This document shows positions 32,766 through 61,862 of a DNA stretch of 64,000 nucleotides, one piece after another. The stretch is taken from NCBI RefSeq assembly GCF_025628885.1, contig NZ_JAOTIF010000013.1, positions 62,001 through 126,000 on the forward strand, written 5' to 3'. Under the pieces are notes generated by a model, which had not been told where the DNA came from, did no database searches, and saw nothing but the letters and a program-made list of their open reading frames with translations. Both the position numbers and the translations under genes were made by a program. The stretch comes from Paraflavisolibacter caeni. GTDB lineage: Bacteria > Bacteroidota > Bacteroidia > Chitinophagales > Chitinophagaceae. Positions within the stretch are counted from its first letter, which is position 1; each line of letters begins with the position of its first letter.

Positions 32766-32842
32766 AGTATACTTTAAGCATACTTAAAGTATACCTAGAG
32801 TATACCTAGAGTATTCCCGCAGTATCCCTGGAGTATAGGTAC
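32766..32842. repeat. Tandem 11-bp repeat, seven units
   Basis: Seven units in exact 11-bp register begin AGTAT or AGCAT; units 3 and 4 are identical (AGTATACCTAG). The sequence drifts along the array from AGTATACTTTA to AGTATAGGTAC. Confidence 0.85.
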
Positions 32843-46394: not shown

Positions 46395-47912
46395 TTATGA
46401 GGTTGCTTGCAGCACCTTATCCTTTGCAACGTTTTCAACTGCAGCCAACCATCCTGCATAAGATTTTTTTATCTTACTGGAATTTGGAGCGGGTAGAATC
46501 ATTAACTCGCCTTTATTCATAGAGACCAAATGGTCCAGATCTTTATACACGCCTGCTTTTAATCCAGCCATGAAAGCAGCACCTAAAGCAGATACATCCG
46601 CCTGTCCGATATTGACTACTGGCTTTTCTAGGAGGTCTGCTAAAAATTGTAGAACAAACTTATTGGATGTGATGCCCCCATCCACCATTAATTGTTGCAA
46701 ATCCAAATTAGTATCCAGTTCCATAGCGGTTATGACATCTTTGATCTGGTAAGGGATGGATTCAAGAGCTGCCCTCACAATATGGTTTTTATTTGACCCG
46801 AATGTAAGGCCTGAAATAGATGCTTTTCGATTCATATCCCAATGTGGTGCACCCAAGCCACTAAAAGCGGGCACAAGGTAAACACCTCCATTATCGTCAA
46901 CAGAAGTAGCCATGGGCTCGGTCTGCCTGCTATCAATGAACAATCCTAATTCATTTTTTAACCATTCTACAGTAGCACCGCAGGTAACAATCACGCCCTC
47001 CAAGGCATAATTCACTTTATCTTCCGTACTCCAGCAAATGGTAGTCACCATTCCATTCTTTGATTCCTTTGGCAGCTCTCCAATATTCATCAGGATGGAA
47101 CAGCCAGTACCTAAAGTAGCTTTTGCCGTACCAGGCATGAAACAGCCTTCCCCAAATGCAGCGGCATGAGAATCACCAATCATGCCTGTAATATCTATAG
47201 GAGAAGGTAACAGGTCTTCAAAACTTGTTTGTCCGAACAAAGCAGAGGATGCTTTTGCTTCGGGGAGATTTAAACGGGAAAGTCCGAATGTGCTAAGGAG
47301 TTCCTTATCCCAAGTAAGATCGTGCAGGTTGAAGAATAAGGTGCGGGATGCATTGGTATAATCGGTACTATAGCTTTTTCCTCCTGTCAATCGATACAAC
47401 AGCCATGTATCTACTGTACCAAAGAAAGCCTTACCACTTTCAATAGCTGCATGAATTTTGGGTTCATTTTCATGCAACCATACCAGTTTACTTCCTGAAA
47501 AATAAGGATCGATCACCAGGCCAGTATTTGAGTTGATCATTTCTTCAAGGCCCTCTTCTTTCCAACGTTTACAGATATCAATCGAGCGCTTACATTGCCA
47601 TACGAGTGCATTATATAAAGGACGGCCTTCATCATCCCATAGCACGAAAGTTTCTCTTTGATTAGAAATGCCGCAAGCTTTGATATGTGCCAGATCTCCT
47701 CCACTGGCTTTAAAATCTTCTAAGCACTTTCTAACAGAGGTTAACACATTCTGATAAATATCTTCGGGATCCTGCTCTACAAAACCATTATCAGTGTAGT
47801 GAGTTTTTAATGGCTCTGTTCCTCTAGCAACAGGTTTGCCCTTTTCATCAAATATAATAGTCTTAGTACTGCTGGTGCCCTGGTCAATTGCCAGAATGTA
47901 TGCGGAGTTCAT
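46395..47912 (-). CDS. FGGY-family carbohydrate kinase, GlpK-like with altered substrate pocket
   Basis: The 505-residue protein aligns along its length with glycerol kinase: DQGTSSTKTIIFD at the ATP phosphate loop, NQRETF (R86, E87), the Trp of LVWQCKRS, PYFSG with Y137, and GDSHAAAFGE with the catalytic base D247. Two residues that touch glycerol in E. coli GlpK differ: the Gln after the catalytic Asp is Ser248, and the Phe of GTGCF is Ser272. The F/H-G-G-Y-like ATP motif region DGGITSNKFVLQFLADLL is intact. It is the last gene of the isomerase-transketolase-ABC operon, so I expect it to phosphorylate the ketose made by the isomerase. A true glycerol kinase cannot be excluded. Confidence 0.82.
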   Translation of the reverse strand: MNSAYILAIDQGTSSTKTIIFDEKGKPVARGTEPLKTHYTDNGFVEQDPEDIYQNVLTSVRKCLEDFKASGGDLAHIKACGISNQRETFVLWDDEGRPLYNALVWQCKRSIDICKRWKEEGLEEMINSNTGLVIDPYFSGSKLVWLHENEPKIHAAIESGKAFFGTVDTWLLYRLTGGKSYSTDYTNASRTLFFNLHDLTWDKELLSTFGLSRLNLPEAKASSALFGQTSFEDLLPSPIDITGMIGDSHAAAFGEGCFMPGTAKATLGTGCSILMNIGELPKESKNGMVTTICWSTEDKVNYALEGVIVTCGATVEWLKNELGLFIDSRQTEPMATSVDDNGGVYLVPAFSGLGAPHWDMNRKASISGLTFGSNKNHIVRAALESIPYQIKDVITAMELDTNLDLQQLMVDGGITSNKFVLQFLADLLEKPVVNIGQADVSALGAAFMAGLKAGVYKDLDHLVSMNKGELMILPAPNSSKIKKSYAGWLAAVENVAKDKVLQATS

Positions 47913-47945
47913 AAAAGTCGTATGAAATATTTAATGAAAAGAAGC

Positions 47946-48950
47946 TTATTGATTTTTAGAATTGGCTTTATCAATGATTACAGCAAGTAAGATCACAAAA
48001 CCTTTGACAACTTGTTGCCAGAAAGGAGAAACGTTTAATAGTACAAGACCATTATTGAGTACTCCAATGATGATGGCACCTAACACTGTCCCCATGATAC
48101 TGCCTTTACCACCGGAAAGCGAAGTACCACCTATCACCACTGCAGCAATAGCATCCAGCTCGTATGTGATTCCTGCATTGGGTTGAGCTGAATCAAGTCT
48201 CGATGTAACAATGATACCACCAATAGCAGCCAGTCCGCCAGCTATGGTATAAACAGCGATCTTAATTTTATCAATATTAATCCCTGAAAGTCTTGATGCA
48301 TTTTCATTGCCACCAATTGCATAAATATACCGTCCAAACCTGGTTTTCCTGGTAAGGAGTACAGCCATTAAAACGATGATACCTGAGATCCATACCGGGA
48401 CAGGAATACCTAAAAACCAACCAGTCCCAATAAAGGAAAAACTTTCACCTAAACCACTAATTGGAAAGCCCTTTGTCCACAGCATTGTGAGTCCTCTTGC
48501 AATAGTGAGCACAGCTAGTGTGGCCACAAAAGGAGGCACTTTAAATCTGGTGATGGTCCAGCCATTAAAAACACCTAAAAGTGCACCTATTAGCAAACCA
48601 GCAAGTACAGCTCCAAGAATCGTGAAGCCAACATATAGATTGGCTGAAGGAAATTCAAGACCATTTCTTAGCAAGCCTGCTGTAATCGCTCCAGATAATG
48701 CCAATACTGAACCTACAGACAGATCAATACCTGCAGTGAGTACCACGAGGGTCATTCCGGTTGCGATACATATATTAACAGATATCTGCCTCATCACATT
48801 CCATGCATTATCTATCGTCAGGAATTTATCAGACAGGATGCTTAATACAAAACACAGAATAAACAGGGCAATCAATGATTGGAACCTCGCTAAAGAACGG
48901 GTGTACTTCTTTATACTGTTTTGGCTGTTCAATTTGATTATGGCTTCCAT
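47946..48950 (-). CDS. rbsC: Sugar ABC transporter permease, RbsC type
   Basis: The 334-residue membrane protein has about ten helices and the family phrase VVLTAGIDLSVGSVLALSGAITAGLL, followed by VPPFVATLAVLTIARGLTMLWTKG in outline and GGTSLSGGKGSIMGTVLGAIIIGVLNNGL. It forms the inner-membrane channel with RbsA as ATPase. Its start is three bases after the rbsA stop. ABC sugar importers of this kind are rare in Bacteroidota compared with symporters, which makes the locus stand out. Confidence 0.93.
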   Translation of the reverse strand: MEAIIKLNSQNSIKKYTRSLARFQSLIALFILCFVLSILSDKFLTIDNAWNVMRQISVNICIATGMTLVVLTAGIDLSVGSVLALSGAITAGLLRNGLEFPSANLYVGFTILGAVLAGLLIGALLGVFNGWTITRFKVPPFVATLAVLTIARGLTMLWTKGFPISGLGESFSFIGTGWFLGIPVPVWISGIIVLMAVLLTRKTRFGRYIYAIGGNENASRLSGINIDKIKIAVYTIAGGLAAIGGIIVTSRLDSAQPNAGITYELDAIAAVVIGGTSLSGGKGSIMGTVLGAIIIGVLNNGLVLLNVSPFWQQVVKGFVILLAVIIDKANSKNQ

Positions 48951-48953
48951 TGA

Positions 48954-50459
48954 TTATATAGTTTTAGGTATGGCTGCTTTTAAAATAACATTTTCGGATG
49001 CGCTGCTTACTGGTATTTCAGCGGTCAACCGACCCTCTGATAATACCAGTATCCTGTCGGATATAGCCAGTATTTCAGGTAGTTCGGAAGAAACAACAAT
49101 GATCCCAATACCTGCATCTGCCAGTTGTAATATGATATTGTATATCTCATTCTTAGCATTGATGTCAATACCACGAGTGGGCTCATCCAGCATCAAAACC
49201 TTGGGTTTCTTAGCCAACCATTTTGCCAATACTATTTTCTGCTGATTACCACCACTCAGATTATTGACAGCCTGCTTGTCTGATGGCGTTTTTATTCTCA
49301 GTTCTCCGATGTATTTTTCTGCCAGATCACACTCTTTATCATGGTTCAACAAACCTCCGGTTTCAAGATCATCTAGCGTAGTCAGACAAATATTTGTCCG
49401 CACATCCATTCCCAATACCAAGCCATCCTTTTTCCTGTCTTCCGGTACCAGAGCTAAACCTGCCTTTATAGCATCAGCTGGCGAAGAGAAATGCATGTGT
49501 TTTCCATCGACATAAATACTGCCGACTGTACGCTTTGGATGCAACCCAAAAAGGGCTTCCATCAATTCTGTACGCCCAGCCCCCATCAACCCGAACAGTC
49601 CCAATATTTCACCTCTGCCTAATGAAAAAGATATATCCTTCAGAACATTTTCAGCTTTATCTGAATGACGCAAGCTTAAGTTTTCGATGCGGAGTAATTC
49701 ATCCTTTACAGATTGATCTTCCTTTTGCTTGCGAATGATACTAATGTGCCGGCCAACCATTTTCTGAATCAGGGAATCCTGATCCATTCCTTTCATATCA
49801 CCGCTTTCAATAGAACATCCATCTCTTAATACAACAAACCGATCGGCAATCCTGAACAATTCATCCAGTTTATGAGAAATGTAAACAATGATCTTATTTT
49901 CCTTCCTGAGATTTTCAATAATGCCAAATAGCACATCAACCTCATGATCGCTAATTGCTGATGTAGGTTCATCCATTATGATCACATCTGCATCAATCAG
50001 TAAGGCCTTTGCAATTTCTACTACCTGTTGCTGACCTATCTTCAACTGGGAAACAGGAGTATCTGGGTCCAAATCTAATTTTAACCTTTTCAGCAAAGCC
50101 TTTGTTCTGTTGCGCATGGCTTCTTTATCTAACAGCCCCCACTTATTTAGGATTTCGCGCCCTAAGAAGATATTCTCCCTGATATTTAAATATGGAATCA
50201 GATTTAATTCCTGATGTATGATGGCGATACCACAAGCCTGGGCTTCACGTACTGAAGTAAAATAAACAGGTTCGTCCTTATAAAGGATGCGCCCTTCGTA
50301 ATCAGGATAAACCCCGGAAAGTATCTTCATGAGCGTTGACTTCCCTGCTCCATTTTCTCCCAAAATGGCATTCACCTTTCCTGGATATAGTTCCATACTC
50401 ACGTTATTCAACGCGATAACTCCTGGAAACCTCTTTGTTATGTTTTCGACTGCAAGCAC
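48954..50459 (-). CDS. rbsA: Sugar ABC transporter ATPase, RbsA type
   Basis: The 501-residue protein has two ATPase domains. The first has Walker A GENGAGKSTLMKILSG, signature QLKIGQQQVVEIAKAL and Walker B VIIMDEPTSAI. The second has the usual degenerate Walker A FGLMGAGRTELMEALFG and signature LSGGNQQKIVLAKWL with MLDEPTRGID. It powers import of the sugar bound by the lipoprotein upstream. The start is GTG at 50459. Confidence 0.94.
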   Translation of the reverse strand: MLAVENITKRFPGVIALNNVSMELYPGKVNAILGENGAGKSTLMKILSGVYPDYEGRILYKDEPVYFTSVREAQACGIAIIHQELNLIPYLNIRENIFLGREILNKWGLLDKEAMRNRTKALLKRLKLDLDPDTPVSQLKIGQQQVVEIAKALLIDADVIIMDEPTSAISDHEVDVLFGIIENLRKENKIIVYISHKLDELFRIADRFVVLRDGCSIESGDMKGMDQDSLIQKMVGRHISIIRKQKEDQSVKDELLRIENLSLRHSDKAENVLKDISFSLGRGEILGLFGLMGAGRTELMEALFGLHPKRTVGSIYVDGKHMHFSSPADAIKAGLALVPEDRKKDGLVLGMDVRTNICLTTLDDLETGGLLNHDKECDLAEKYIGELRIKTPSDKQAVNNLSGGNQQKIVLAKWLAKKPKVLMLDEPTRGIDINAKNEIYNIILQLADAGIGIIVVSSELPEILAISDRILVLSEGRLTAEIPVSSASENVILKAAIPKTI

Positions 50460-50493
50460 GTTGGGTGTTTATGATTAAAGAGTGATGAGTAAC

Positions 50494-51132
50494 TTATTTA
50501 CTTTCCAGCTTTAAAGTGATAGGGACAACTTCAATATGATCCAGATTCAAATGCGCCTGATTCAATTCGATAGCACCTGAGAATTTTATTCTATCACCGA
50601 CTTTCCCATTGGCTTTGAAAGAAGGCAAAACTTCACTTCTAACGATCTTATTGATCTCAGCAGACACATTATTAAAGTCCATAGTGCTGTTGAACTCATT
50701 GATATTGATTAGACCGGAAGCATCTCTTATAGCATTTCCATAAACAAATTCAGTGGCAATTTCCAGTTGCTTCTGGGTGGTATCACTGATATAAGAAATA
50801 GTGGTTGTATTCTCACCGATAGCTTTGATGGTTCCTTCTCCTTTTACCAAGAAGTAACGGATATTACCAATGCCAAGAGCATGTGAGTAAGACAGAAAAG
50901 CCTTTGACGGGTCTGATTGAACCAGTTTTAAAAGCGCATCTATTTCAACTGCTTTATCAATGCCGGGCATTAATTTCTTATTAAAGAAATGATGCGCATA
51001 GGAGGCAGCGTCAAATTGCTTGACCGCAGATGCGGCCTTTACTTCATCAAGGCTTTTGAAATAAATAGAATTGTAAGCTACTACTATCAAAGCCACAATT
51101 GAGAGCGCATATTTGATAACTTTCTTTTGCAT
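50494..51132 (-). CDS. DUF2291-family membrane-anchored protein
   Basis: The 212-residue protein has one N-terminal hydrophobic helix (residues 8-24) without a lipobox cysteine and an extracytoplasmic beta-rich domain (YFLVKGEGTIKAIGENTTTI; KVGDRIKFSGAIELNQAHL) typical of DUF2291. Genes of this family are usually found inside RbsABC-type sugar operons, as here between the binding protein and RbsA. Its role is unknown; the context suggests an accessory part of the importer. Confidence 0.82.
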   Translation of the reverse strand: MQKKVIKYALSIVALIVVAYNSIYFKSLDEVKAASAVKQFDAASYAHHFFNKKLMPGIDKAVEIDALLKLVQSDPSKAFLSYSHALGIGNIRYFLVKGEGTIKAIGENTTTISYISDTTQKQLEIATEFVYGNAIRDASGLININEFNSTMDFNNVSAEINKIVRSEVLPSFKANGKVGDRIKFSGAIELNQAHLNLDHIEVVPITLKLESK

Positions 51133-51179
51133 GCAATCTGGTTGAAATGGTGAATGGTGAATGGAAAGACTGATTTCTG

Positions 51180-52145
51180 TTATTTTCCTTCATCCTTCTT
51201 ACCGTAGGCAATGTAATCGCCGACATTATTCTGCGTAACTAATTCTACTGCGACAGGCATCTTCTTTGGAAACTCACGTTTACCTTTAAAATATTCATCG
51301 GCATATTGAGCTGCAGTTTCTGCCATCACTTGTGGAAACTGCATGGCTGTAGCTTCTACTTTACCGTTTTTAATAGCGTCGACGGCATCCTCTGCTCCAT
51401 CAAATCCAAACACTTTTACATGACCCGCTTTACCTGCCGCCACCAGAGCCTGGTAAGCACCCATGGCCATAGCATCATTGCCACAAAAAACAGCATCGAT
51501 ATCGGGGTTTGCCTGGAGTATAGACTCCAATACTTCCATGGCTTTGTTGCGGTCAAAGTCAGCACTTTGCTGTGCAACCATCTTCAATCCGGGGTAATTA
51601 TCAACCAGGCTGTGAAATCCTTTGGAGCGGTTCCAAGTATTGTTGTCACTAACTAATCCCAGTAACTCAACATACTTACCTTGCTTATTCAGCTTTTCGA
51701 CAAAATACCTACCTATGGCGACACAGCCAGAATAGCTATCAGAAAGGATCTGGGAGGTGGCACCATCAGTAGTATTTACTTCGCGGTCCATGCAAAATAC
51801 AGGCACTTTTGCAGCCTTAGCCCTCATCACATTAGCCACCGAGCCTTCAGCATCTGTGGGATTAAAGAGAATAGCACTATAGCCGGAAGCAATTGCATTT
51901 TCAAAATGTTCGGTTTCCAAAGCCGTATTATTTTGAGAATCGAAAATCTTTGCTTCATATCCTAGCTCTTTTGCCTTGGCAGAAGCTTTTTGTGCCAAGA
52001 AAACAAACCAAGGATTGTTCAAAGTTGATACAACAACTGCGATCTTTCTGGGTTGGTCTGATGCTGCTTTGTTTTTGCAGCTACTGGTTACAATTAACAG
52101 AGATAGTAACAGCAGTAAAAAAGGTTGAGGGAAATGTTTTATCAT
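51180..52145 (-). CDS. rbsB: Sugar-binding lipoprotein of ABC transporter, RbsB-like
   Basis: From ATG 52145 the protein has 321 residues and a lipobox (LLIVTSSCK, Cys23). The mature part is a type I periplasmic binding fold: KIAVVVSTLNNPWFVFLAQ, FNPTDAEGSVANVMRAK, PVFCMDREV, VFCGNDAMAMGAYQAL and VFGFDGAEDAVDAIKNG. The ligand-facing NPWF, DRE and FDG elements resemble ribose/allose binders. It should present a pentose-like sugar to RbsC at the inner membrane. It lies between the transketolase subunits and the DUF2291 gene. Confidence 0.92.
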   Translation of the reverse strand: MIKHFPQPFLLLLLSLLIVTSSCKNKAASDQPRKIAVVVSTLNNPWFVFLAQKASAKAKELGYEAKIFDSQNNTALETEHFENAIASGYSAILFNPTDAEGSVANVMRAKAAKVPVFCMDREVNTTDGATSQILSDSYSGCVAIGRYFVEKLNKQGKYVELLGLVSDNNTWNRSKGFHSLVDNYPGLKMVAQQSADFDRNKAMEVLESILQANPDIDAVFCGNDAMAMGAYQALVAAGKAGHVKVFGFDGAEDAVDAIKNGKVEATAMQFPQVMAETAAQYADEYFKGKREFPKKMPVAVELVTQNNVGDYIAYGKKDEGK

Positions 52146-52228
52146 GGTCAATTATCGTTAGAGATCAGGTAAGCAACCGTTAGTTAAATTAGTAAATCAT
52201 CCATAAAAACCATGGAATTGACTCCTGT

Positions 52229-53197
52229 TTATTGTCTTTTTAACAGTTTTAAAGCTGTGGCAACAATGCCTGTTTTTGAAATACCATAATGATTGAATAT
52301 TTCTGCCTGGGAACCTGTAATTGTATATTCGTCAGGAATACCCATTATTTTAAAGGGGTTAGAATAGCCATTCTGCATCAAAAAAGAAGCACAAGCCTCA
52401 CCTAAGCCACCGTAAACGCTATGTTCTTCTACTGTAATCACAGGGGCGCCTGTAGAAGCCACTGCAGACAACAGCTCATAATCAAGAGGCTTTATGGTGT
52501 GCATGCTCACAACAGTAGTGCTGAGATTGTGTTCCTTCTCCAGCATGATTGCAGCCTGCAGAGATGGATAAACAGTTTCGCCTGTAGCAATGATCGTTAA
52601 GGCATCTCCATTTTTGATGATCCTGCCTTTACCAAATTGAAAATCACCATCTTCTGCTGGCTTTAACAAGGGCATTGGTTTTTTACCAAAACGCAGGTAA
52701 ACCGGGTGATGTATTTCTGCAGCCAGCCTGATGGCCTGTTCTGTTTCGAAATTATCGGCCGGGGCTACAATGATTATATTATTAATGGCCCTCAGAGCAG
52801 CAAAATCATGCAGGCTATGGTGGGTAGAACCCAAAGCACCATAGCTAACACCTGCACTGATGCCAATCAGCTTTACCGGATTATCTGAATAAGCAACATC
52901 ATTTTTAATTTGCTCTAAGGCCCTGGCTGTCAGAAAACAAGCTGGTGAGACAGCGAAAACCTTTTTGCCTGCAGAAGCCAATCCTGCGGCAACTCCAACC
53001 AGGTTTTGTTCTGCAATCCCCACCTCAACGATCTGTTGCGGAAATTGCTGTCCATAAGGAGCCAGTTTACCCGAGCCTCTTGAATCGCTGGTGACTGCGA
53101 TGATATCCCTATCATTCAGGGCCAGCTCTTGCAACGTACCAGCAAATACTTCCAGGTTTGCTTTATCTGTTCCTATAGCTTCAATGATTAATCCCAC
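52229..53197 (-). CDS. Transketolase C-terminal subunit
   Basis: The 322-residue protein holds the pyrimidine-binding and C-terminal transketolase domains. The catalytic glutamate is in VEVGIAEQNLVGVAAGLAS; YGALGSTHHSLHDFAALR and TVVSMHTIKPLD are further family blocks. It must pair with the N-terminal subunit encoded 31 bp upstream to bind thiamine diphosphate. The start is GTG at 53197. Split transketolases often serve dedicated sugar pathways, such as the apulose-4-phosphate transketolase AplAB, rather than the pentose phosphate pathway. Confidence 0.92.
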   Translation of the reverse strand: MGLIIEAIGTDKANLEVFAGTLQELALNDRDIIAVTSDSRGSGKLAPYGQQFPQQIVEVGIAEQNLVGVAAGLASAGKKVFAVSPACFLTARALEQIKNDVAYSDNPVKLIGISAGVSYGALGSTHHSLHDFAALRAINNIIIVAPADNFETEQAIRLAAEIHHPVYLRFGKKPMPLLKPAEDGDFQFGKGRIIKNGDALTIIATGETVYPSLQAAIMLEKEHNLSTTVVSMHTIKPLDYELLSAVASTGAPVITVEEHSVYGGLGEACASFLMQNGYSNPFKIMGIPDEYTITGSQAEIFNHYGISKTGIVATALKLLKRQ

Positions 53198-53228
53198 GAT
53201 AATACAAATTAGTTGTTTGATGATGTTT

Positions 53229-54053
53229 TTATAGTGCAGCCATCACTCTATCCAATTCTTCAATGGCAAATGCATATTGCTCTTTACCAGGAACACCATG
53301 ATGCCATTTGAGGCCATTCTCCATGTAACTGACGCCTTTCCCTTTCACTGTATGTGCGACGATCAGACTTGGTTTCCCCTGCGCAAAAGGAAGGGCATCA
53401 AAAGTTTCTTTCAGTTCTTTGATATTATGCCCGTCGACGTGTCTCACTTCCCAGCCAAAACTTTCAAATTTCCTGTCAATGGGATCTGTATTGCATACAT
53501 CAGCAGTGCGTCCGGAGATCTGTAACTTGTTATAATCTATAATGGCGCAAAGATTATCCAGCTTGTAATGAGCAGCACACAAAGCGGCCTCCCAATTAGA
53601 ACCTTCAGGTAATTCACCATCCCCCAAAAGGGTAAAAACGCGGTATTTTTTTGCATCCATCTTGGCCGCCAAAGCGGTTCCGACTGAGATGGGCAAGCCA
53701 TGACCCAAGGCACCGGTATTTTGCTCAATACCTTTTACCTTTCTGGTAGGATGACCAATGTAATGAGACTTGTATCTGCACATTGTTTCCAGATCTGAAT
53801 AAGGGAAAAAGCCTTTATCAGCCAATACTACAAACAGAGCTTCCACACAGTGTCCTTTACTCTGGATATAGCGGTCCCTATCCGGAGAGGTAAAGTTTCC
53901 GGGATCCACATTTAAAACGCAGTTGTATAATACATTTAAGATATCAATGCAGGATAAACTTCCCCCTGTATGACCAGCCTGGGCGCCTACTATATACTTC
54001 AATATGCTTTTGCGGTAGGCAACTGATTTCTGTGCTAATTCTTTTTCCGTCAT
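53229..54053 (-). CDS. Transketolase N-terminal subunit
   Basis: From ATG 54053 (MTEKELAQKSVAYRKSILK) the protein has 274 residues. It is the diphosphate-binding half: AQAGHTGGSLSCIDILNVLY, SKGHCVEALFVVLADKG, TGALGHGLPISVGTALA and the thiamine diphosphate motif GDGELPEGSNWEAA ending in IDYNK. In-frame codons upstream of 54053 run through a C-rich palindromic repeat and are not part of the protein. That repeat sits six bases before the start codon, and could affect translation. Confidence 0.92.
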   Translation of the reverse strand: MTEKELAQKSVAYRKSILKYIVGAQAGHTGGSLSCIDILNVLYNCVLNVDPGNFTSPDRDRYIQSKGHCVEALFVVLADKGFFPYSDLETMCRYKSHYIGHPTRKVKGIEQNTGALGHGLPISVGTALAAKMDAKKYRVFTLLGDGELPEGSNWEAALCAAHYKLDNLCAIIDYNKLQISGRTADVCNTDPIDRKFESFGWEVRHVDGHNIKELKETFDALPFAQGKPSLIVAHTVKGKGVSYMENGLKWHHGVPGKEQYAFAIEELDRVMAAL

Positions 54054-54064
54054 AGAAAATCCCC

Positions 54065-54090
54065 CACACCCCCACCCCCTAAAGGGGAGC
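54065..54090. repeat. C-rich palindromic intergenic element, copy 2
   Basis: It matches the element at 5593-5618 at 24 of 26 positions, with core CCCCTAAAGGGG. Read on the minus strand it is a row of three G5 runs just before the transketolase start codon. Confidence 0.6.
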
Positions 54091-54166
54091 CTATACACAC
54101 TCCTCTTTCAGGGAAAAGGATTTAATATTATTTACTTATTTAGAATTATTGTTGTTGTGGACATGC

Positions 54167-55624
54167 TCAATTGAAGTTCCCTACCGTCAATGGATCAGGC
54201 GCGGAATTGTGATGATATACATCCCATCCCATATAATTCCCAAGAGCTTCTTTTAAAATACCTGCGGTGTTGGAAGCATTCATGACTACATGGTGCTCAA
54301 AACCATTGCGACAAACAAACTGCATCAATCTTTGCAAGTTTGGAATCTTCGCAACAGCCCTGGTTCCAAAAGTGTTCAATTCGTCATCGGTTAATGCGCC
54401 TTCGCCTATATATGCTTTGATAATGCCTTTAGGATCATCCGTGCTGATTCGTCCATAAGTAAGCGGCGATGCCGGGGTGCGGCCTGCCAATGCTCCATAA
54501 GTATTTTCTTCACCTATGGTTGTGCCCAAAATTGGAGCAGTGCTGATTTCAATGTCGGGCAGAAATGATTTAGCCCAGTTACCACAGTGGAATAAAACAC
54601 ATTTTTCATCATCATTTGCATAGTTGTTATTCCAATCCACCAAAGCACTTGGCGAACCTGAAGCTAACTGCATCGCATACATGCTTAAAGTGCCAGTTAC
54701 ATCTACTTCGCAGGCACTGGGAAGCATATTCTCGCTCATGATGCTCATGCTGGTACATACATTACAGCCATAGTTTTGCTGCAATGAGGTCCAGCACTGG
54801 ATAGCAGTTGCATCCAAGGCGTATTCATCCATAAAGGAATTAAGCGCCACATCCAATTTTGCAATCTGGACCAGCTTCTCGTGCGGCGTACGGCCTGAAG
54901 GAGCATAACTTTTTATTTTCTCCATTCTTTCCACAACTGTTTTATCAGCAAGGGAAAGCTTATTAGCATGCCCCAGGATTTGCGATAGATCTACAGTAAC
55001 TACAGAAATGCCATTGCGCTGTAATATCTTTTCACTATATCTCACTGTATTAAAGGCACCAGGGCGGGCACCCACAGCTCCAATACGCACTTTTTTCAAT
55101 CCTCTAACCACGCGGCAGGTAGCGGCAAAGTCAGAAAGATCCTTGAGGAAACCGGGATCTGAAGGATGCACTACATGTTTTGTTGTGAGAGAAAACTTGA
55201 TCCCGTACTGGTAAAAATTATTGCATACGGAAATCTTACCACACCAAGCATCCCTTCTACGGGCTACATCCAGTTTATTTAAATCATCAGGGTAGGCTTG
55301 TACCAATACAGGCACGTCCAGTCCTGCAAGTTTTATCGTATCAGCTACGCCTTTCTCATCGCCAAAGTTGGGTAGCACTACCAGAATACCCATGATTTCA
55401 TCAGCGAATGTTCTGAACAATGCAGCACATTTTTGGGCCTCCTGGTATGTTTCCACACCACCCAGTTTAGTAGCGCTTTCTTCGAGCATTATTGGTTTGA
55501 TACCAGTTTTGGCAAAAGCTTCCAAAAGGTCGGAACGGCACTCTCCCACCAGTCTATCAGGGAAAAAATCCCTGTTTCCGATTATAACACCCAGTGTAAT
55601 TTTTTCGTTGTTCTTTTTTAGCAT
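54167..55624 (-). CDS. L-fucose/L-arabinose isomerase-fold sugar isomerase
   Basis: The 485-residue protein belongs to the fucose/arabinose isomerase fold group. The N-terminal Rossmann-like part (LGVIIGNRDFFPDRL; GILVVLPNFGDEKG) is followed by SACEVDVTGTLSMYAMQLAS, which carries the Glu and Asp metal ligands, CVLFHCGNWAKSF, and a C-terminal FEHHVVMNASNTAGILKEAL with the conserved histidines. It should interconvert an aldose and its ketose with a metal ion. It differs clearly from classical FucI and AraA, so the substrate is open. It begins 10 bp after the DeoR stop and leads the catabolic genes. Confidence 0.82.
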   Translation of the reverse strand: MLKKNNEKITLGVIIGNRDFFPDRLVGECRSDLLEAFAKTGIKPIMLEESATKLGGVETYQEAQKCAALFRTFADEIMGILVVLPNFGDEKGVADTIKLAGLDVPVLVQAYPDDLNKLDVARRRDAWCGKISVCNNFYQYGIKFSLTTKHVVHPSDPGFLKDLSDFAATCRVVRGLKKVRIGAVGARPGAFNTVRYSEKILQRNGISVVTVDLSQILGHANKLSLADKTVVERMEKIKSYAPSGRTPHEKLVQIAKLDVALNSFMDEYALDATAIQCWTSLQQNYGCNVCTSMSIMSENMLPSACEVDVTGTLSMYAMQLASGSPSALVDWNNNYANDDEKCVLFHCGNWAKSFLPDIEISTAPILGTTIGEENTYGALAGRTPASPLTYGRISTDDPKGIIKAYIGEGALTDDELNTFGTRAVAKIPNLQRLMQFVCRNGFEHHVVMNASNTAGILKEALGNYMGWDVYHHNSAPDPLTVGNFN

Positions 55625-55634
55625 ATTTGAGTCT

Positions 55635-56399
55635 TTAGCCTGCTATGATCAACTCAATTTCATGGTCTTTAAACACCTGCTTGAATTTATCCTCAATAGC
55701 AGCATCAGTAATAATGTAATCGATCAATGATAAAGCCCCGAGGCTGGCAAAAGCACTCTTACCAATCTTAGTGGAATCGGCAACCAAGAAAGTGGTATCG
55801 GCTGCATCAATCATTGCCTTTTTAACCACCAAGTCACTGATACTTGGGTAAGTAAGACCAGCCTTCAGAGAAATACCTGCTGTAGCCAGGAATAACTTCT
55901 GCACATTAATGCCCTTGAAAAAGTCGGCCGCTTTCTGGCCAGTAAGGGACAAAGTTGGAGGCTTGAATTCCCCGCCAGTTACAATGACTTCAATACCTGG
56001 TTCTGCACCCAAGAGCAAGGCAATATTTAAAGCATTCGTTAGTACTGTCAGGTTTTTGAAACCCTTCAATTTCTTTGCAATCTCTGTAGTGGTAGTACCA
56101 GAATCCAAGATGATCGTATCGCCACTCTCAATGTATTCCAGGCATTTGCTTGCTATCAACTCCTTCTTTTCCATATTCTCCTGATTAGCCAGAGAAAATG
56201 CCTGCACCTGATCCTTAATATTTTTTAGAAAAGCGCCTCCGTGCTCCTTTATCACTAGACCATCCCTTTCCAACTTTTCAAGATCCTGGCGAATGGTCAC
56301 TTCAGTTACCTTGAAGATTCTTGCAAGGTCAATGACCTTGGCGGAACCATCTTCCTTTATTAATTCATAGATTTTCTCCCGCCTTTGATTTGGAATCAT
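55635..56399 (-). CDS. DeoR-family transcription repressor
   Basis: The 254-residue protein has an N-terminal DeoR helix-turn-helix (MIPNQRREKIYELIKEDGSA; VTEVTIRQDLEKLERDGLV) and a sugar-phosphate sensing domain (~75-230) with the family motifs ILDSGTTTTEIAKKL, VLTNALNIALLL, FLATAGISLKAGLTYPS and FLVADSTKIGKSAF. It is the first gene of the isomerase-kinase operon and is probably relieved by a sugar phosphate of the pathway. Candidate operators (TTTTCGTT direct repeats) lie before susC; a TTTTCGATTTT stretch lies before its own start. Confidence 0.92.
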   Translation of the reverse strand: MIPNQRREKIYELIKEDGSAKVIDLARIFKVTEVTIRQDLEKLERDGLVIKEHGGAFLKNIKDQVQAFSLANQENMEKKELIASKCLEYIESGDTIILDSGTTTTEIAKKLKGFKNLTVLTNALNIALLLGAEPGIEVIVTGGEFKPPTLSLTGQKAADFFKGINVQKLFLATAGISLKAGLTYPSISDLVVKKAMIDAADTTFLVADSTKIGKSAFASLGALSLIDYIITDAAIEDKFKQVFKDHEIELIIAG

Positions 56400-56605
56400 A
56401 AATCCAAGTAGTTTCTTTTTTGTTTAAAAATAATAATATTCTATGAAATAACCCAATAAAATCGAAAATAAAAGAAAAAAATAGTAAAAAATAGGAACAA
56501 CAAATGATTCGAATCTACCAGAGGCGGACAAGTTTGAATGAAGAATGGGAGAAAGGGAATGATATAAGGATATTAGGGTATGGGTTGGGTGAAAAATGGT
56601 TTCTA

Positions 56606-56671
56606 GGCTCAAGTACGGCTATGATACGGCTAAGGTACGGCTCAAGTACGGCTCAGGTACGGCTCAGGTAT
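56606..56671. repeat. Tandem 11-bp repeat, six units
   Basis: Six contiguous units fit GGCTNNNNTAC/T: GGCTCAAGTAC, GGCTATGATAC, GGCTAAGGTAC, GGCTCAAGTAC, GGCTCAGGTAC, GGCTCAGGTAT. Confidence 0.9.
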
Positions 56672-56721
56672 GGATTCAGGGTCAAGAGGAAGGGAGGGGT
56701 CAAAATCTGTTTCGTGCACTA

Positions 56722-56754
56722 AGTATACTTGAAGTGTGCTTGATGAGTGCTTGA
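56722..56754. repeat. 11-bp repeat, three units
   Basis: AGTATACTTGA, AGTGTGCTTGA and TGAGTGCTTGA follow each other exactly. The first differs by one base from the first unit at 32766 (AGTATACTTTA). Confidence 0.8.
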
Positions 56755-56865
56755 TCTATACACCAAACCTACTCCAGCTATGTAAAAGAGGGGAGATTTG
56801 GGGGATTTCGGATTTGGGAATTTAGTGATGCTGAGGTAAACAAATACCAAACTAGTAGAGCAGCT

Positions 56866-56975
56866 ATGGCTTTGATATGGAGTTAGTACGGGGTAGACAG
56901 GGAGTAACACCGGAGTATCTATGGAGTAAGGTCTCTATAACATCTCTATAACATCTCTATAAGGTCTCTGTAAGG
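56866..56975. repeat. Tandem 11-bp repeat, ten units in two sequence types
   Basis: Ten contiguous 11-bp units. The first six follow ATGGAGTNNNN (for example ATGGAGTTAGT, CCGGAGTATCT, ATGGAGTAAGG), and the last four follow TCTCTATAACA/GG, two of them identical. The register does not slip when the sequence type changes. Confidence 0.9.
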
Positions 56976-57135
56976 TTGGGGTGGAAATGAGAAAAGTAGT
57001 ATCTAAAATGTAAATATAAAACTGAGGTTGGGTGAAACGAAGGAGAAAAGAGCTATGCTGATTTGGATGAATCAGGAGGCGGAAGGATGAGGAATATGGT
57101 GTTGAGGCGTTTGGTTGGTGAGGTGGCGAGAAAGG

Positions 57136-57176
57136 AAAAACCCGGTTTATAACCTTAATTGGTTATAAACCGGGTT
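57136..57176 (-). terminator. Intrinsic terminator of susC-susD
   Basis: A 16-bp perfect stem (arms 57139-57154 and 57161-57176, loop TTAATT) is followed on the minus strand by a run of T residues. It lies 27 bases after the susD stop. Confidence 0.92.
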
Positions 57177-57203
57177 GCTGCTTAAATAAAAATCAACTTA
57201 GTA

Positions 57204-58649
57204 CTAATAACCAGGATTTTGTGGTGCCAGGTTGGGATTCTGGTTCAGTGAATATTGTGGCACGGGCAGTAATAATTTATTAGCATTCACTGCTTTTCCT
57301 TTTGCAGTAAGTACAGCGACTGCACGACCTGTTCTTTTTAAATCGAACCAACGTTGATATTCAAGGGCAAACTCCATGCGTCGTTCATGTTCAACGGCAA
57401 GATCAATTGTTGGGTATTTGACGGCAGGATATCCGGCTGAACCAAAAAGCGGAAGTCCAGCTCTTGCCCTTACCCTGTTCATGTATTGCGGATCGCCGGT
57501 AGCCTCGGTAAGCAGCAACAACACATCAGCGTAACGCAGTACTATGAAATTATTGTTGCAGGCTTCTGCTCCTCCATCAAGCGGCGCCGTAAGGTCCACC
57601 CATTTTTTATTGAACTTGATAGGAACAAAAACACCGCCTTTAGTATAACCAGTATAAAAAGACGCATCCTTGCGCGTGTCACCATCCTCATATTCATTGT
57701 ATAAATCATCCGTCACCATATTCATTCCACCGCCATATTTTGTAATGGAAAAATTTTCAAAAGGCGCAAAAGCTGGCCAGAAAGAACTGTAAGGATTGGC
57801 AGCACCACCCAGGTATTGAATTTCAAAAATCGACTCTTTAGTGTTTTTTTGGGCTGTTGTATTTCCCCATAAGGAAGTGAAAGAAGGCAACAAGTCGTAT
57901 TTAGAACCACCATAACTGTCTACCACTTCCTTCAAGATTTGCGCAGCCTTGGCTTTATCACCCATTGTAAGATATACTTTACCCAACAATGATTTAGCCG
58001 CACCTTTGGTCGCTCTTCCTTTGGCAGGCTCACTGCTTGGCTCTGTTAGATCAGTAGCTGCCGCCTTTAATTCCTCTACAATAAAATTATACACATCTGC
58101 CTTAGGAGTCCGCTTCATAGCATAAGCCTCCTCGCCAATGATCGGTTTTGTAACCAGCGGCACATCGCCATATAACTGAACCAAGTTGAAATAATACAAT
58201 CCCCTCAAAAATTTCATCTCGGCGATGATTTGTTTTTTATATGCATCATCCAGGTCAGCATCTACTATTTTATCCAATACAATATTTATCTGGTACATGG
58301 AGGTATAATAATCAACCCAAAACTGATAAACACCTGTATTGTTTGACGCAACGGTATAATCGCGGAATGCCTGCTGATCCACAATGGTAAACGAACCAGA
58401 AATAGCCAAGGTGGAGACAGTAGCATTATCAGACATTAATTCACCGGTAAACGACATAGCCCCCTTGGGTGCGTAAATTGTATATAAAGTTGCGTAAGCA
58501 GCATTGGTAGCCAGGTCAAAGTCGCTCTTGGTCTTAAAGACTGCATTTGTATTAGCGTTAGATATAGGGCTTAACTCAAGAAATGATTTTTTGCAACTGC
58601 TTATTAGTACCAATAATGCGAGTATATATGCTATTTTAGAATATTTCAT
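57204..58649 (-). CDS. susD: SusD/RagB-family outer-membrane nutrient-binding lipoprotein
   Basis: The 481-residue protein has a lipobox (LLVLISSCKK, Cys19) and a SusD fold: TPR-like helices with FLRGLYYFNLVQLYGDVPLV, KTPKADVYNFIVEELKAA, and the C-terminal EHERRMEFALEYQRWFDLKRTGRA typical of the family. It sits on the cell surface as lid of the SusC channel. It is short for the family (usually 500-650), which fits a small ligand. susC is 30 bp upstream. No glycosidase gene accompanies the pair, so the ligand is probably a free sugar or small glycoside. Confidence 0.95.
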   Translation of the reverse strand: MKYSKIAYILALLVLISSCKKSFLELSPISNANTNAVFKTKSDFDLATNAAYATLYTIYAPKGAMSFTGELMSDNATVSTLAISGSFTIVDQQAFRDYTVASNNTGVYQFWVDYYTSMYQINIVLDKIVDADLDDAYKKQIIAEMKFLRGLYYFNLVQLYGDVPLVTKPIIGEEAYAMKRTPKADVYNFIVEELKAAATDLTEPSSEPAKGRATKGAAKSLLGKVYLTMGDKAKAAQILKEVVDSYGGSKYDLLPSFTSLWGNTTAQKNTKESIFEIQYLGGAANPYSSFWPAFAPFENFSITKYGGGMNMVTDDLYNEYEDGDTRKDASFYTGYTKGGVFVPIKFNKKWVDLTAPLDGGAEACNNNFIVLRYADVLLLLTEATGDPQYMNRVRARAGLPLFGSAGYPAVKYPTIDLAVEHERRMEFALEYQRWFDLKRTGRAVAVLTAKGKAVNANKLLLPVPQYSLNQNPNLAPQNPGY

Positions 58650-58679
58650 TTTACTAACTTTTTAAGTTCGTGGACAATT

Positions 58680-61600
58680 TTAGAAATCCATCTTAACGCC
58701 GAAGGTTACAATTAAAGGAATCGGATAAGCTCCGTAGTCGGCCCCTAGTAACAAGCCCGGAGGATTGCTTGAATTGCCACCGTTAGCACCTGGTACAGAA
58801 GAAGTGCCGACAGAATAGGTACTGTTTTCCGGATCATAACCCACATAATCGCTGAACACATATACGTTTTCTGCATTAGCATATACCCGCACATTTTTAA
58901 TAGGAGTCTTTTTAAGAACAGAGTTTGGCAAAGAATAAGAGGCTCTCAAGTTTTTAATTCTTACGAAGGTGCCATCCTCCATCCAATAGTTAGAGTATCC
59001 TTGTATAAAAGCGGCTTTACCTTGAGCGTTGGCAGAATAAGTGGCATAAGGTTTAAATGTTTTGCCATCGCCGGGTTCCTGTTCGGATTTCCAATAGTTT
59101 GTTACAGAAGCATAGGAATTACGGCTATCGTTCCAGAACTTGCTGAAACGGGTCTGCTGATTCCATATCTCACTACCAAACACGCCTTGCAGCATAAAGG
59201 AGAATTCAAAGCCTTTATAACGAAGTGTATTGGTAAGACCTGCGGTAAAGTCGGGCTGGATATTACCTAAAATAGTACGGTCATTGATGTCAATCTTTTT
59301 ATCACCGTTCACATCCCGGATGATTGGATCACCAGGTGCCGCACCGGCATAATGTATGGATTTATCAACCTCGCTTTGGTTGTTGTAGATACCATCAAAA
59401 ATATATCCTTTGTAATTGGATATGGGCTGACCTACTTCTGTTACGAAATAACCCCATTCATCTATTTCAATAGGCGCATTGTTAGGCCCTAATTTCAATA
59501 CTTTATTCCTATTGATTGATAAATTGAAATCAGTACTCCAGGTAAAAGCCCCGCCATCAATATTTTTTGTGGACAGGCCGAATTCAAAACCCTTGTTTTC
59601 CATGCTGCCAATATTGGTCAATTGCGTTGTAAAACCAGTATAAGCAGGCACAGGTACGTTCAACAACATGTCTTTTGTTACAGACTTATAGGCATCTATG
59701 GTAATATTGATCCGGTTTTTTAATAAAGCCAGGTCGGCACCTATGTTATACTGGCCTGTTTTTTCCCATTTAAGACCAGGATTGGAGATAGATATCGTAC
59801 GCAAACCGTTTACAACTGAAGTACCGTTCACATAACGGGAAGTACCCAGCAAAGAAATGGAGCCATAATTTGGGATCAGGTTGTTACCTGTTTGTCCATA
59901 GCTCACCCTGAGTTTTAAGGTATTGATGGCCGCCATATTGCGCATGAAGCCTTCATCGGAAACCAGCCAGGCAGCAGAAACGGAAGGGAAAGTACCCCAC
60001 TTGGAATCTTCACCAAACCTTGAACTACCATCACGACGCAGCGTAGCATTCATGAAATACCTGTTTTTAAATCCATAGCTCACCCTGCCTAGCATGGAAA
60101 GCAATGACCATTCTTCGGCGAAATTTGCATTGGCTGGTTTGGTAATGGTACCTGCAGCATTGATTGTTCGAACCAGGTCGTTGGGGAAATCAGTCCCATT
60201 GATGGCGGTGTTTTCAAACCTGTTCTTTTGTGAACTATAACCGGCAACAGCACCCAACGTATGATCACCAAATGTTTTATTGTAAGTAGCAGTAAATTCA
60301 GCAAGCCAGTTCAGGTTTGAAGTAGTTTTTACAGACGCCTGTGCAGGCAACACACTTGAATAACCGTAACCCTGGCCAGCTTCCCAATACCAGTTGTTAT
60401 TAGTATTGGTCACGTTTCCGTTACCGCTGGCACGCAGGGTAAGATCCTTGATAGGCTTAACTTCCAGGTAAGCATTTGCCAGCGTATTATATGTCTTGTT
60501 TAATTTGTCGGCATAGGAAATCAAGGAATGCGGGCTCCATAATTGCACGCCAAATGTTTGAAAACGTTTCCAGGTAGAATTAGGATCTAAAAAGCCAAGA
60601 TATCCATTTTCATTGTATTCCGGGAAAATAGGATCACTTTGCAATCCCAGGCTCACTACATCACTTTTACCAGAGGTTCCGTCGGTACGGTCATTTGTCC
60701 CAGTAAAAGCAATGTTTAAACCAGCTGTTACCCGATCTGATATTTTTTGCCTGATATTGGAACGCAGGGAAAGGCGTTTATAAAAATTTTCAATCAACAC
60801 GGCTTTTTGATCCAGATAGCCCACAGAAAAGAGGTAACTGGTTTTATCTGTACCTCCATTTAACGATACCTGAGCATTGGACATTGGTGCTGTCTGGTAC
60901 ATTACATCCTGCCAGTCAGTGCCTTTGCCAAACTGCGCAGGATTTGTCAGAAAATCGTCAGGGATCATATAGTTTTTTGCACCACTAACCAGAGACCGTT
61001 TAGCATTATCATCAGTAGGTTTATTGTTCACAGGATCCAATAAAACCCATGCATTATTCCTGGCATCAATGTAATATTTAATCCACTCCTGCGCATCCAT
61101 CATATCCACCTTGCGAGTCACTTTGCTGATTCCTTGCTCATAGGCAACATTTACCTGTGTTTTACCCGCCTTGCCCAGTTTGGTAGTAACAATGATCACA
61201 CCGTTGGCTCCCCGGGAGCCATAAATTGCAGAAGAAGCTGCATCTTTCAAAATCTCAACAGACTGAATATCCTGCGGATTGATCTGGTTCAGATCAAAGT
61301 TTTCCAATGCCATTCCATCCACTACATATAATGGTGTAGTTCCAGCGGTAATCGAACTGTTACCCCGAATTTTGATGGTAGGGCCGAAACCAGGAGCGCC
61401 CTGAGATGAAGCAATCTGGACCCCCGGAACTGTACCTGCCAGAGATTGTGCTACGTTAGAAAAAGAACGGTCCTTAAACTCATCATATCCCACCGAAACA
61501 ACCGCACCTGTAACGGCACGTTTCTTTTGGGTACCGTAACCAATCACTACAACGTTTTCCATGGCTTTTGAATCTGTGCTCAGGTTGATGGCAAGCTCCA

Positions 61601-61862
61601 CTTGCTTACCCACAGCCACTTCCACCTCCTTGAAACCCACGAAAGAAAAAATTAAAACAGATTCATTACCAGGCACGTTGATGGAAAACCGACCATCTGC
61701 GCCGGTGGAGGTACCCTGGTTACCCCCTTTTACCTTGACACTTACACCGGTCATCGTTTCCCCGTTTTCAGAATTTGTAACACGCCCTTGAATCTGACGT
61801 GATTGCGCATGAACTGCCGTAATCAATAGCATGGCAAAAAAGAAGAGAAGACATTGTTTCAT
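58680..61862 (-). CDS. susC: SusC/RagA-family TonB-dependent outer-membrane transporter
   Basis: The 1060-residue protein has a signal peptide (ending AVHAQ, residue ~20), a carboxypeptidase-D-like beta sandwich (~22-105), a linker with NVVVIGYGTQKKRAVTGAV, the plug domain (~125-235, with IRGNSSITAGTTPLYVVDG and SVEILKDAASSAIYGSRGAN) and a beta barrel ending in FGVKMDF. All are diagnostic of SusC. It imports the ligand captured by SusD using TonB/ExbBD energy. It is the first gene of a two-gene unit directed toward the sugar catabolic operon. Confidence 0.97.
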   Translation of the reverse strand: MKQCLLFFFAMLLITAVHAQSRQIQGRVTNSENGETMTGVSVKVKGGNQGTSTGADGRFSINVPGNESVLIFSFVGFKEVEVAVGKQVELAINLSTDSKAMENVVVIGYGTQKKRAVTGAVVSVGYDEFKDRSFSNVAQSLAGTVPGVQIASSQGAPGFGPTIKIRGNSSITAGTTPLYVVDGMALENFDLNQINPQDIQSVEILKDAASSAIYGSRGANGVIIVTTKLGKAGKTQVNVAYEQGISKVTRKVDMMDAQEWIKYYIDARNNAWVLLDPVNNKPTDDNAKRSLVSGAKNYMIPDDFLTNPAQFGKGTDWQDVMYQTAPMSNAQVSLNGGTDKTSYLFSVGYLDQKAVLIENFYKRLSLRSNIRQKISDRVTAGLNIAFTGTNDRTDGTSGKSDVVSLGLQSDPIFPEYNENGYLGFLDPNSTWKRFQTFGVQLWSPHSLISYADKLNKTYNTLANAYLEVKPIKDLTLRASGNGNVTNTNNNWYWEAGQGYGYSSVLPAQASVKTTSNLNWLAEFTATYNKTFGDHTLGAVAGYSSQKNRFENTAINGTDFPNDLVRTINAAGTITKPANANFAEEWSLLSMLGRVSYGFKNRYFMNATLRRDGSSRFGEDSKWGTFPSVSAAWLVSDEGFMRNMAAINTLKLRVSYGQTGNNLIPNYGSISLLGTSRYVNGTSVVNGLRTISISNPGLKWEKTGQYNIGADLALLKNRINITIDAYKSVTKDMLLNVPVPAYTGFTTQLTNIGSMENKGFEFGLSTKNIDGGAFTWSTDFNLSINRNKVLKLGPNNAPIEIDEWGYFVTEVGQPISNYKGYIFDGIYNNQSEVDKSIHYAGAAPGDPIIRDVNGDKKIDINDRTILGNIQPDFTAGLTNTLRYKGFEFSFMLQGVFGSEIWNQQTRFSKFWNDSRNSYASVTNYWKSEQEPGDGKTFKPYATYSANAQGKAAFIQGYSNYWMEDGTFVRIKNLRASYSLPNSVLKKTPIKNVRVYANAENVYVFSDYVGYDPENSTYSVGTSSVPGANGGNSSNPPGLLLGADYGAYPIPLIVTFGVKMDF

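Follow-up and report, generated by a model that had tools for sequence, protein, structure and literature searches.

D-Apiose is a branched sugar of the plant cell wall. PMC13001218 describes a D-apiose cluster in Escherichia coli SE15 that contains aplK, aptA and aptB, and a Pectobacterium cluster that has apsI as well; it gives growth on D-apiose for Pectobacterium, E. fergusonii and three cluster-carrying E. coli strains, and none for E. coli K-12. Here we describe an eleven-gene locus at positions 46395-61862 of a 64,000-nucleotide stretch of Paraflavisolibacter caeni DNA (the window), part of a genome of 7.0 Mb in 89 contigs. In the open reading frame (ORF) list of the window, all eleven genes lie on the minus strand. 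They are transcribed in the order SusC, SusD, a gap of ~800 bp, a DeoR regulator, a PF02952 isomerase, the N- and C-terminal halves of a split transketolase (TktN and TktC), RbsB, DUF2291, RbsA, RbsC and an FGGY kinase; we call the run from DeoR to the kinase the cassette. Gene content, gene order, homology and linkage lead us to conclude, with good confidence, that this is a locus for D-apiose utilisation, a known kind of route in a Bacteroidota setting.

Comparison with described clusters

An isomerase search of plasmid records returned 14 records, three of which, from Sodalis, Klebsiella and Rahnella, exceed 50% identity (52.7-53.2%). Regulator apart, each of the three holds counterparts of all eight importer and enzyme genes of the window. 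A binding protein, DUF2291 (annotated in the enterobacterial clusters as well), an ATPase, a permease, an FGGY kinase, a split transketolase and the isomerase stand in one cluster, as in the Enterobacterales records of D-apiose degradation I. Identities between window and enterobacterial proteins are 47-50% for TktN, 40-41% for TktC, 35-42% for the binding protein and 39-40% for the kinase. The enterobacterial clusters have a 'sugar-binding transcriptional regulator', presumably of the SorC type, where the window has DeoR, and the enterobacterial regions read hold no SusCD, unlike the window. The E. coli SE15 cluster shares its importer, DUF2291, kinase and transketolase genes with the window but has two short-chain dehydrogenase/reductase genes and no isomerase. 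The three plasmid clusters resemble the E. coli D-apiose cluster, with 72% identity between the Sodalis kinase and AplK of SE15. The first-pass annotation had proposed that a free monosaccharide crosses both membranes and is then isomerised, phosphorylated and cleaved by a split transketolase, as in the D-apiose route; this logic is supported. It had put no name to the sugar, for which these clusters and the apiosidase linkage described below now make apiose the best candidate. The Klebsiella record (pINF102.2, L101) is an 11.6-kb linear 'plasmid' that consists of the apiose-type cluster plus one Rpn-family gene, and is perhaps an assembly fragment.

The best solved relative of the window TktN is 6YAK, a split-chain transketolase. 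TktN is 47% identical to E. coli AptA and 56% to a Listeria half, and TktC is 41% identical to AptB and 47% to the Monoglobus and Listeria halves. Monoglobus pectinilyticus and Listeria have an isomerase, TktN, TktC and a GlpK-like kinase in the same order as the window; a gene with the apiosidase domain PF13204 directly follows the kinase in Monoglobus (60 bits) and lies one gene further on in Listeria (244 bits over part of the gene). Their isomerases are just 24-26% identical to that of the window, and they have a LacI regulator rather than DeoR, with a phosphotransferase system gene also present in Listeria.

The window kinase scores 571 bits with the equivalog model TIGR01311 (cut-off 590) and passes the broader NF000756 (576, cut-off 498); the genome's own GlpK, on contig C2, reaches 745 bits with TIGR01311. 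At the pocket positions 246 and 270 (GlpK numbering, used for position 135 below as well), serine is found in the window kinase, in 50 of 50 full-length cassette kinases, in four AplK-type kinases and in those of Monoglobus and Listeria. Both E. coli GlpK and the genome's own have Q at 246 and F at 270. The missed equivalog cut-off, S246/S270 and the presence of a GlpK elsewhere in the genome led us to reject a plain glycerol kinase.

The window isomerase is the sole match in its own genome at E 0.01. A sulfoquinovose route (SftI) was rejected, the NF048012 score being 79 bits against a cut-off of 700. The structure model of the isomerase (predicted local distance difference test score, pLDDT, 54.8) was too poor for use.

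The ribose operon of Thermotoga maritima responds to ribose and xylose; besides an importer and a ribokinase, it encodes a transketolase and two predicted D-arabinose enzymes (PMC3750489). It has that ribokinase and a LacI-type RbsR, whereas the window locus has DeoR and no RbsK among the proteins scanned. The likeness of its enzymes to the apiose module is one of description; T. maritima also holds a PF13204 domain, as one of two among 14 control genomes that do. By analogy, this operon may serve apiose too, and its extra enzymes deserve an apiose test.

Distribution and linkage of the cassette

A genome scan that used the isomerase as query yielded 213 pattern matches and 186 relatives, and 80 loci were kept, which are Bacteroidota judging by record titles. 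Across these loci, several of which are truncated, either at a contig end or at the limit of the 10-kb flank, we found the isomerase in 80, TktN in 77, TktC in 76, RbsB in 73, DUF2291 in 72, RbsA in 72, RbsC in 66, DeoR in 63 and the kinase in 55. The order isomerase-TktN-TktC-RbsB-DUF2291-RbsA is kept on one strand in 71 loci, and the order from DeoR to the kinase is unbroken in 45. Among the rows compared, a Segetibacter metagenome-assembled genome holds the nearest relative of both the window isomerase and the window kinase. The cassette is not singular, yet it is uncommon in the phylum: of 296 genomes sampled, 13 have the isomerase at E 1e-60, with identities of 72-100% in five and 47-51% in the other eight. 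The joining of SusCD to an RbsABC importer had been called uncommon in a Bacteroidota locus. The presence of SusCD near such a cassette is not singular: by BLAST thresholds, 9 of the 80 loci contain SusC and 11 contain SusD.

Linkage was examined in 49 genomes, out of 50 taken from those of the 80 loci. Of their 105 copies of the PF13204 apiosidase domain, 12 are no more than 12.5 kb away from the isomerase (0.43 expected) and 30 no more than 50 kb away (1.72 expected); the expected numbers presuppose uniform placement and the genomes are related, so Poisson values are not true probabilities. Four sub-cut-off rows and one fragment had been dropped from 110. By single-linkage protein clusters, one member of each being scanned with Pfam, apiosidase-domain genes are present in 15 of the 80 loci (nine of GH140-like architecture, six with DUF5060/DUF5605), a BT_1020-like gene in seven and a GH127 gene in nine. 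BT_1020 and GH140 take part in the breakdown of rhamnogalacturonan II (RG-II). At one locus (L065), the neighbours of the enzyme module include an apiosidase and a BT_1020-like gene, and its 21 kb hold no ABC (ATP-binding cassette) importer. The window genome itself has an RG-II-type locus on contig C18, with a PF13204 gene and with SusCD, DUF6298, GH140-like, GH43-like, BT_1020-like and rhamnosidase genes.

The window SusC is 54-55% identical, over nearly its full length, to proteins that adjoin the cassette in two Runella loci. SusD relatives of at least 49% identity, a class chosen after a gap was seen in the list, occur in 25 genomes, in 14 of the 25 within 30 kb of the isomerase (0.24 expected), compared with 4 of 75 for more distant matches (0.59 expected); at most 31 candidates were scored per genome, and distant SusD may be missed. 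Upstream of the cassette, SusD is accompanied by GH140-like, BT_1020-like and GH127 genes in six Dyadobacter loci.

The commonest extra gene encodes a secreted, nucleoside-hydrolase-like PF07632 protein. It is present in 51 of the 80 loci (e.g. L027:13323-14750), and in 35 of those 51 it lies on the same strand within the run of cassette genes. Once three fragments from one genome (G002) were dropped from 119 rows, 59 of 116 copies, in 35 genomes, fell within 12.5 kb of the isomerase, with 0.53 expected. A PF07632 structure has been solved (2YHG), and several acidic residues are invariant across 22 aligned members. Apiofuranose is available from RG-II, apiogalacturonan and plant apiosides. From the cassette linkage and the conserved acidic residues, we tentatively suggest, while thinking it somewhat less probable than its opposite, that PF07632 (Sde182) proteins are secreted apiofuranosidases, in which a Ca-binding nucleoside-hydrolase fold would cut O-linked apiofuranose and feed the D-apiose cassette. 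If true, this would give the family a testable function. A single copy is present in the window genome, on a contig other than the window's. Neighbours of PF07632 were read in four of eleven plasmid records (Pantoea, Selenomonas, Croceibacterium and Spirosoma); they include glycosidases in three and no apiose cassette, and these records therefore lend no support to the apiose link. A review (PMC8910321) reports that the prototype Sde_0182 keeps Ca but lacks activity towards nucleosides, and raises the possibility that it is a furanose-interacting module.

Nucleoside hydrolases of PF01156 were counted after sub-cut-off rows, fragments and two PF07632 protein rows had been dropped. None of 26 strong members lies within 30 kb of the isomerase, and 5 of 43 weaker ones do, all in Spirosoma. 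In Spirosoma loci L007, L008, L009, L010 and L012, a weak PF01156 protein (~60 bits) is encoded less than 5 kb from the isomerase, in addition to PF07632.

D-Apiose and rival substrates

We infer a scheme in which each reaction, each ligand, the regulation and the cooperation of SusCD with the cassette are putative; its chemistry is that of the D-apiose route in MetaCyc (PWY-8089), reportedly set out by Carter et al. in 2018. D-Apiose or a small apioside would enter across the outer membrane via SusCD, be bound by the RbsB-type lipoprotein and pass inward through RbsAC with DUF2291. Once in the cytoplasm, D-apiose would be converted to D-apulose by the FucI-family isomerase, and the FGGY kinase would yield D-apulose 4-phosphate. 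The split transketolase would then shift the two-carbon unit of D-apulose 4-phosphate to a glycolytic aldehyde; the products would be xylulose 5-phosphate and dihydroxyacetone phosphate. DeoR would keep the cassette repressed until a pathway intermediate is present. Use of D-apiose would provide a concrete substrate for Bacteroidota genes in families named after ribose, fucose and glycerol, and would link apiose, which occurs in RG-II, a pectin of the plant cell wall, with a SusCD subfamily and a DeoR regulator.

A number of findings weigh against D-apiose, chief among them the pocket of the binding protein (structure model pLDDT 92; lipoprotein Cys25 invariant in 26 aligned rows). Its best solved relative is the T. 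maritima ribose-binding protein 2FN8, titled as a ribose bound form. At the twelve positions that contact ribose in E. coli RbsB, the window protein, 73 of 73 cassette binding proteins and 2FN8 are identical, and E. coli RbsB itself equals the window at eleven. The window pocket reads NWFNDRRFNFDQ, versus NFFDDRRWNFDQ in the three enterobacterial records and NYYDNRRGNIDL in E. coli SE15, amounting to three and seven differences, respectively, at the twelve positions. There the three enterobacterial proteins equal Rhizobium etli 5IBQ, which reportedly has apiose bound, and Carter et al. reportedly described apiose-binding proteins; the aligned part of 4RY0, titled as a ribose transporter binding protein, equals that of 5IBQ. 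Because the window pocket equals that of 2FN8, the importer may carry ribose, apiose or both. The kinase, for its part, is closer to GlpK (44%) than to AplK (39-40%), and at position 135 it shares Tyr with the cassette kinases and GlpK, the residue being Leu in the four AplK-type kinases. A free kinase tree does not set all module kinases apart from GlpK, with their joint grouping not rejected (approximately unbiased test, p-AU 0.129). The eight Bacteroidota isomerases at 47-51% are nearly as close to the window isomerase as the enterobacterial ones are, and the tree is near a trichotomy of window, enterobacterial and other Bacteroidota isomerases (65/23; alternative p-AU 0.383). Genes other than the kinase follow RbsC in ten Dyadobacter loci, mostly over less than 2.5 kb. 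None of the four SusD relatives of highest identity (64-66%) lies close to the isomerase, and a genome of the same genus (G082) has the cassette and no SusD relative at E 1e-60. Finally, the window's locus contains no glycosidase, and the window's contig yielded neither a PF13204 apiosidase gene nor one of PF07632. The first-pass annotation had named a protein that binds ribose only, or an isomerase and kinase from families of known substrate, such as glycerol, as results that would refute it. The ribose-type pocket is there and the kinase is GlpK-like, but the kinase misses the TIGR01311 cut-off and its pocket residues are changed.

The strongest competitor to D-apiose is D-ribose, in a locus without a ribokinase of its own: ribose would be imported by RbsABC, isomerised to D-ribulose and phosphorylated to D-ribulose 5-phosphate, with the transketolase leading into the pentose phosphate pathway. 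The 59% identity to 2FN8, with all twelve pocket positions equal, fits this proposal, as does the presence of nucleoside-hydrolase-fold PF07632 proteins at 51 of the 80 loci, and a ribokinase may be among eight PfkB-family kinases encoded elsewhere in the genome. However, no match to E. coli RbsK or RbsD was found at 1e-5 among ORFs of at least 90 amino acids in the 80 loci, and neither family was present among the ten window proteins scanned. The strong PF01156 nucleoside hydrolases are unlinked, and Sde_0182, according to the review cited above, does not act on nucleosides. These absences, the unlinked hydrolases and the apiosidase linkage, which ribose leaves unexplained, lowered the ribose-only reading, and we consider it improbable.

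L-Arabinose or D-arabinose, handled by the same isomerase family, was considered in view of the eight isomerases at 47-51%, which cluster in the tree (89/93, not starred). Locus L131, the member of this group scanned for AraB and AraD, has its isomerase (~47% to the window's) beside an AraB-type kinase (669 bits, cut-off 428) and an AraD-type protein (341, cut-off 257). Locus L128 has ORFs of lengths matching those of L131, a symporter-like gene and a full-length transketolase. For these reasons, the group probably serves L-arabinose, at least in part. Further members have an FGGY kinase (L129), a symporter (L125, L126) or an oxidoreductase instead (L130). The occurrence of a second PF02952 group in probable L-arabinose operons suggests a non-canonical L-arabinose isomerase. 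Once this group appeared, isomerase identity was dropped as proof of apiose. L131 and L128 share the isomerase family with the window (47-49%) but differ in other genes: the window has a GlpK-like kinase, scoring 71 and 43 bits with ribulokinase models whose cut-offs are 428 and 583, as well as a split transketolase and no AraD-type protein among the proteins scanned. An arabinose locus is therefore very unlikely. Some other small or branched sugar, processed by the same chemistry, would suit a binding pocket that differs from those of the enterobacterial clusters, but it would also have to account for the linkage to apiosidase and RG-II-type genes, and we give it an equally slight chance.

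Layout of the locus

All genes listed by the first-pass annotation were recovered at their coordinates on one strand, with agreeing Pfam and NCBIfam families (Table 1). Its picture of a single-strand gene set stands. The hairpin behind SusD and the ~800-bp gap before DeoR make it probable that SusC-SusD and the cassette are transcribed separately. A consensus scan found 10 hairpins, among which this one has the longest stem; shuffled sequences give an average of 13.6.

Table 1. Features of the putative D-apiose locus, in window coordinates
Feature	Coordinates	Strand	Families and scores
FGGY kinase, GlpK-like; predicted D-apulose kinase (AplK role)	46395..47912	-	PF00370/PF02782
RbsC-type permease of the ABC importer	47946..48950	-	PF02653; best NCBIfam ribose permease, 361 bits (cut-off 398)
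RbsA-type double ATPase of the ABC importer	48954..50459	-	PF00005 twice; listed sugar ATPase models all below cut-off
DUF2291 predicted periplasmic protein, a frequent importer partner	50494..51132	-	PF10054, 189 bits
RbsB-type sugar-binding lipoprotein	51180..52151	-	PF13407; 59% identity to T. maritima 2FN8
Split transketolase, C-terminal half (putative AplB/AptB role)	52229..53197	-	PF02779, PF02780
Split transketolase, N-terminal half (putative AplA/AptA role)	53229..54098	-	PF00456
FucI-family aldose isomerase; predicted D-apiose isomerase (ApsI role)	54167..55624	-	PF02952
DeoR-family regulator	55635..56399	-	PF08220, PF00455
Terminator-like hairpin 3' of SusD	57139..57176	-	16-pair stem and T run
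SusD-type outer-membrane lipoprotein	57204..58649	-	PF14322, PF07980
SusC-type TonB-dependent outer-membrane transporter	58680..61862	-	PF07715 plug; PF13715 carboxypeptidase-regulatory-like domain

The gap between SusD and DeoR also contains tandem arrays of differing 11-bp units, at 56606-56670 and 56927-56976, and another such array lies at 32780-32837.

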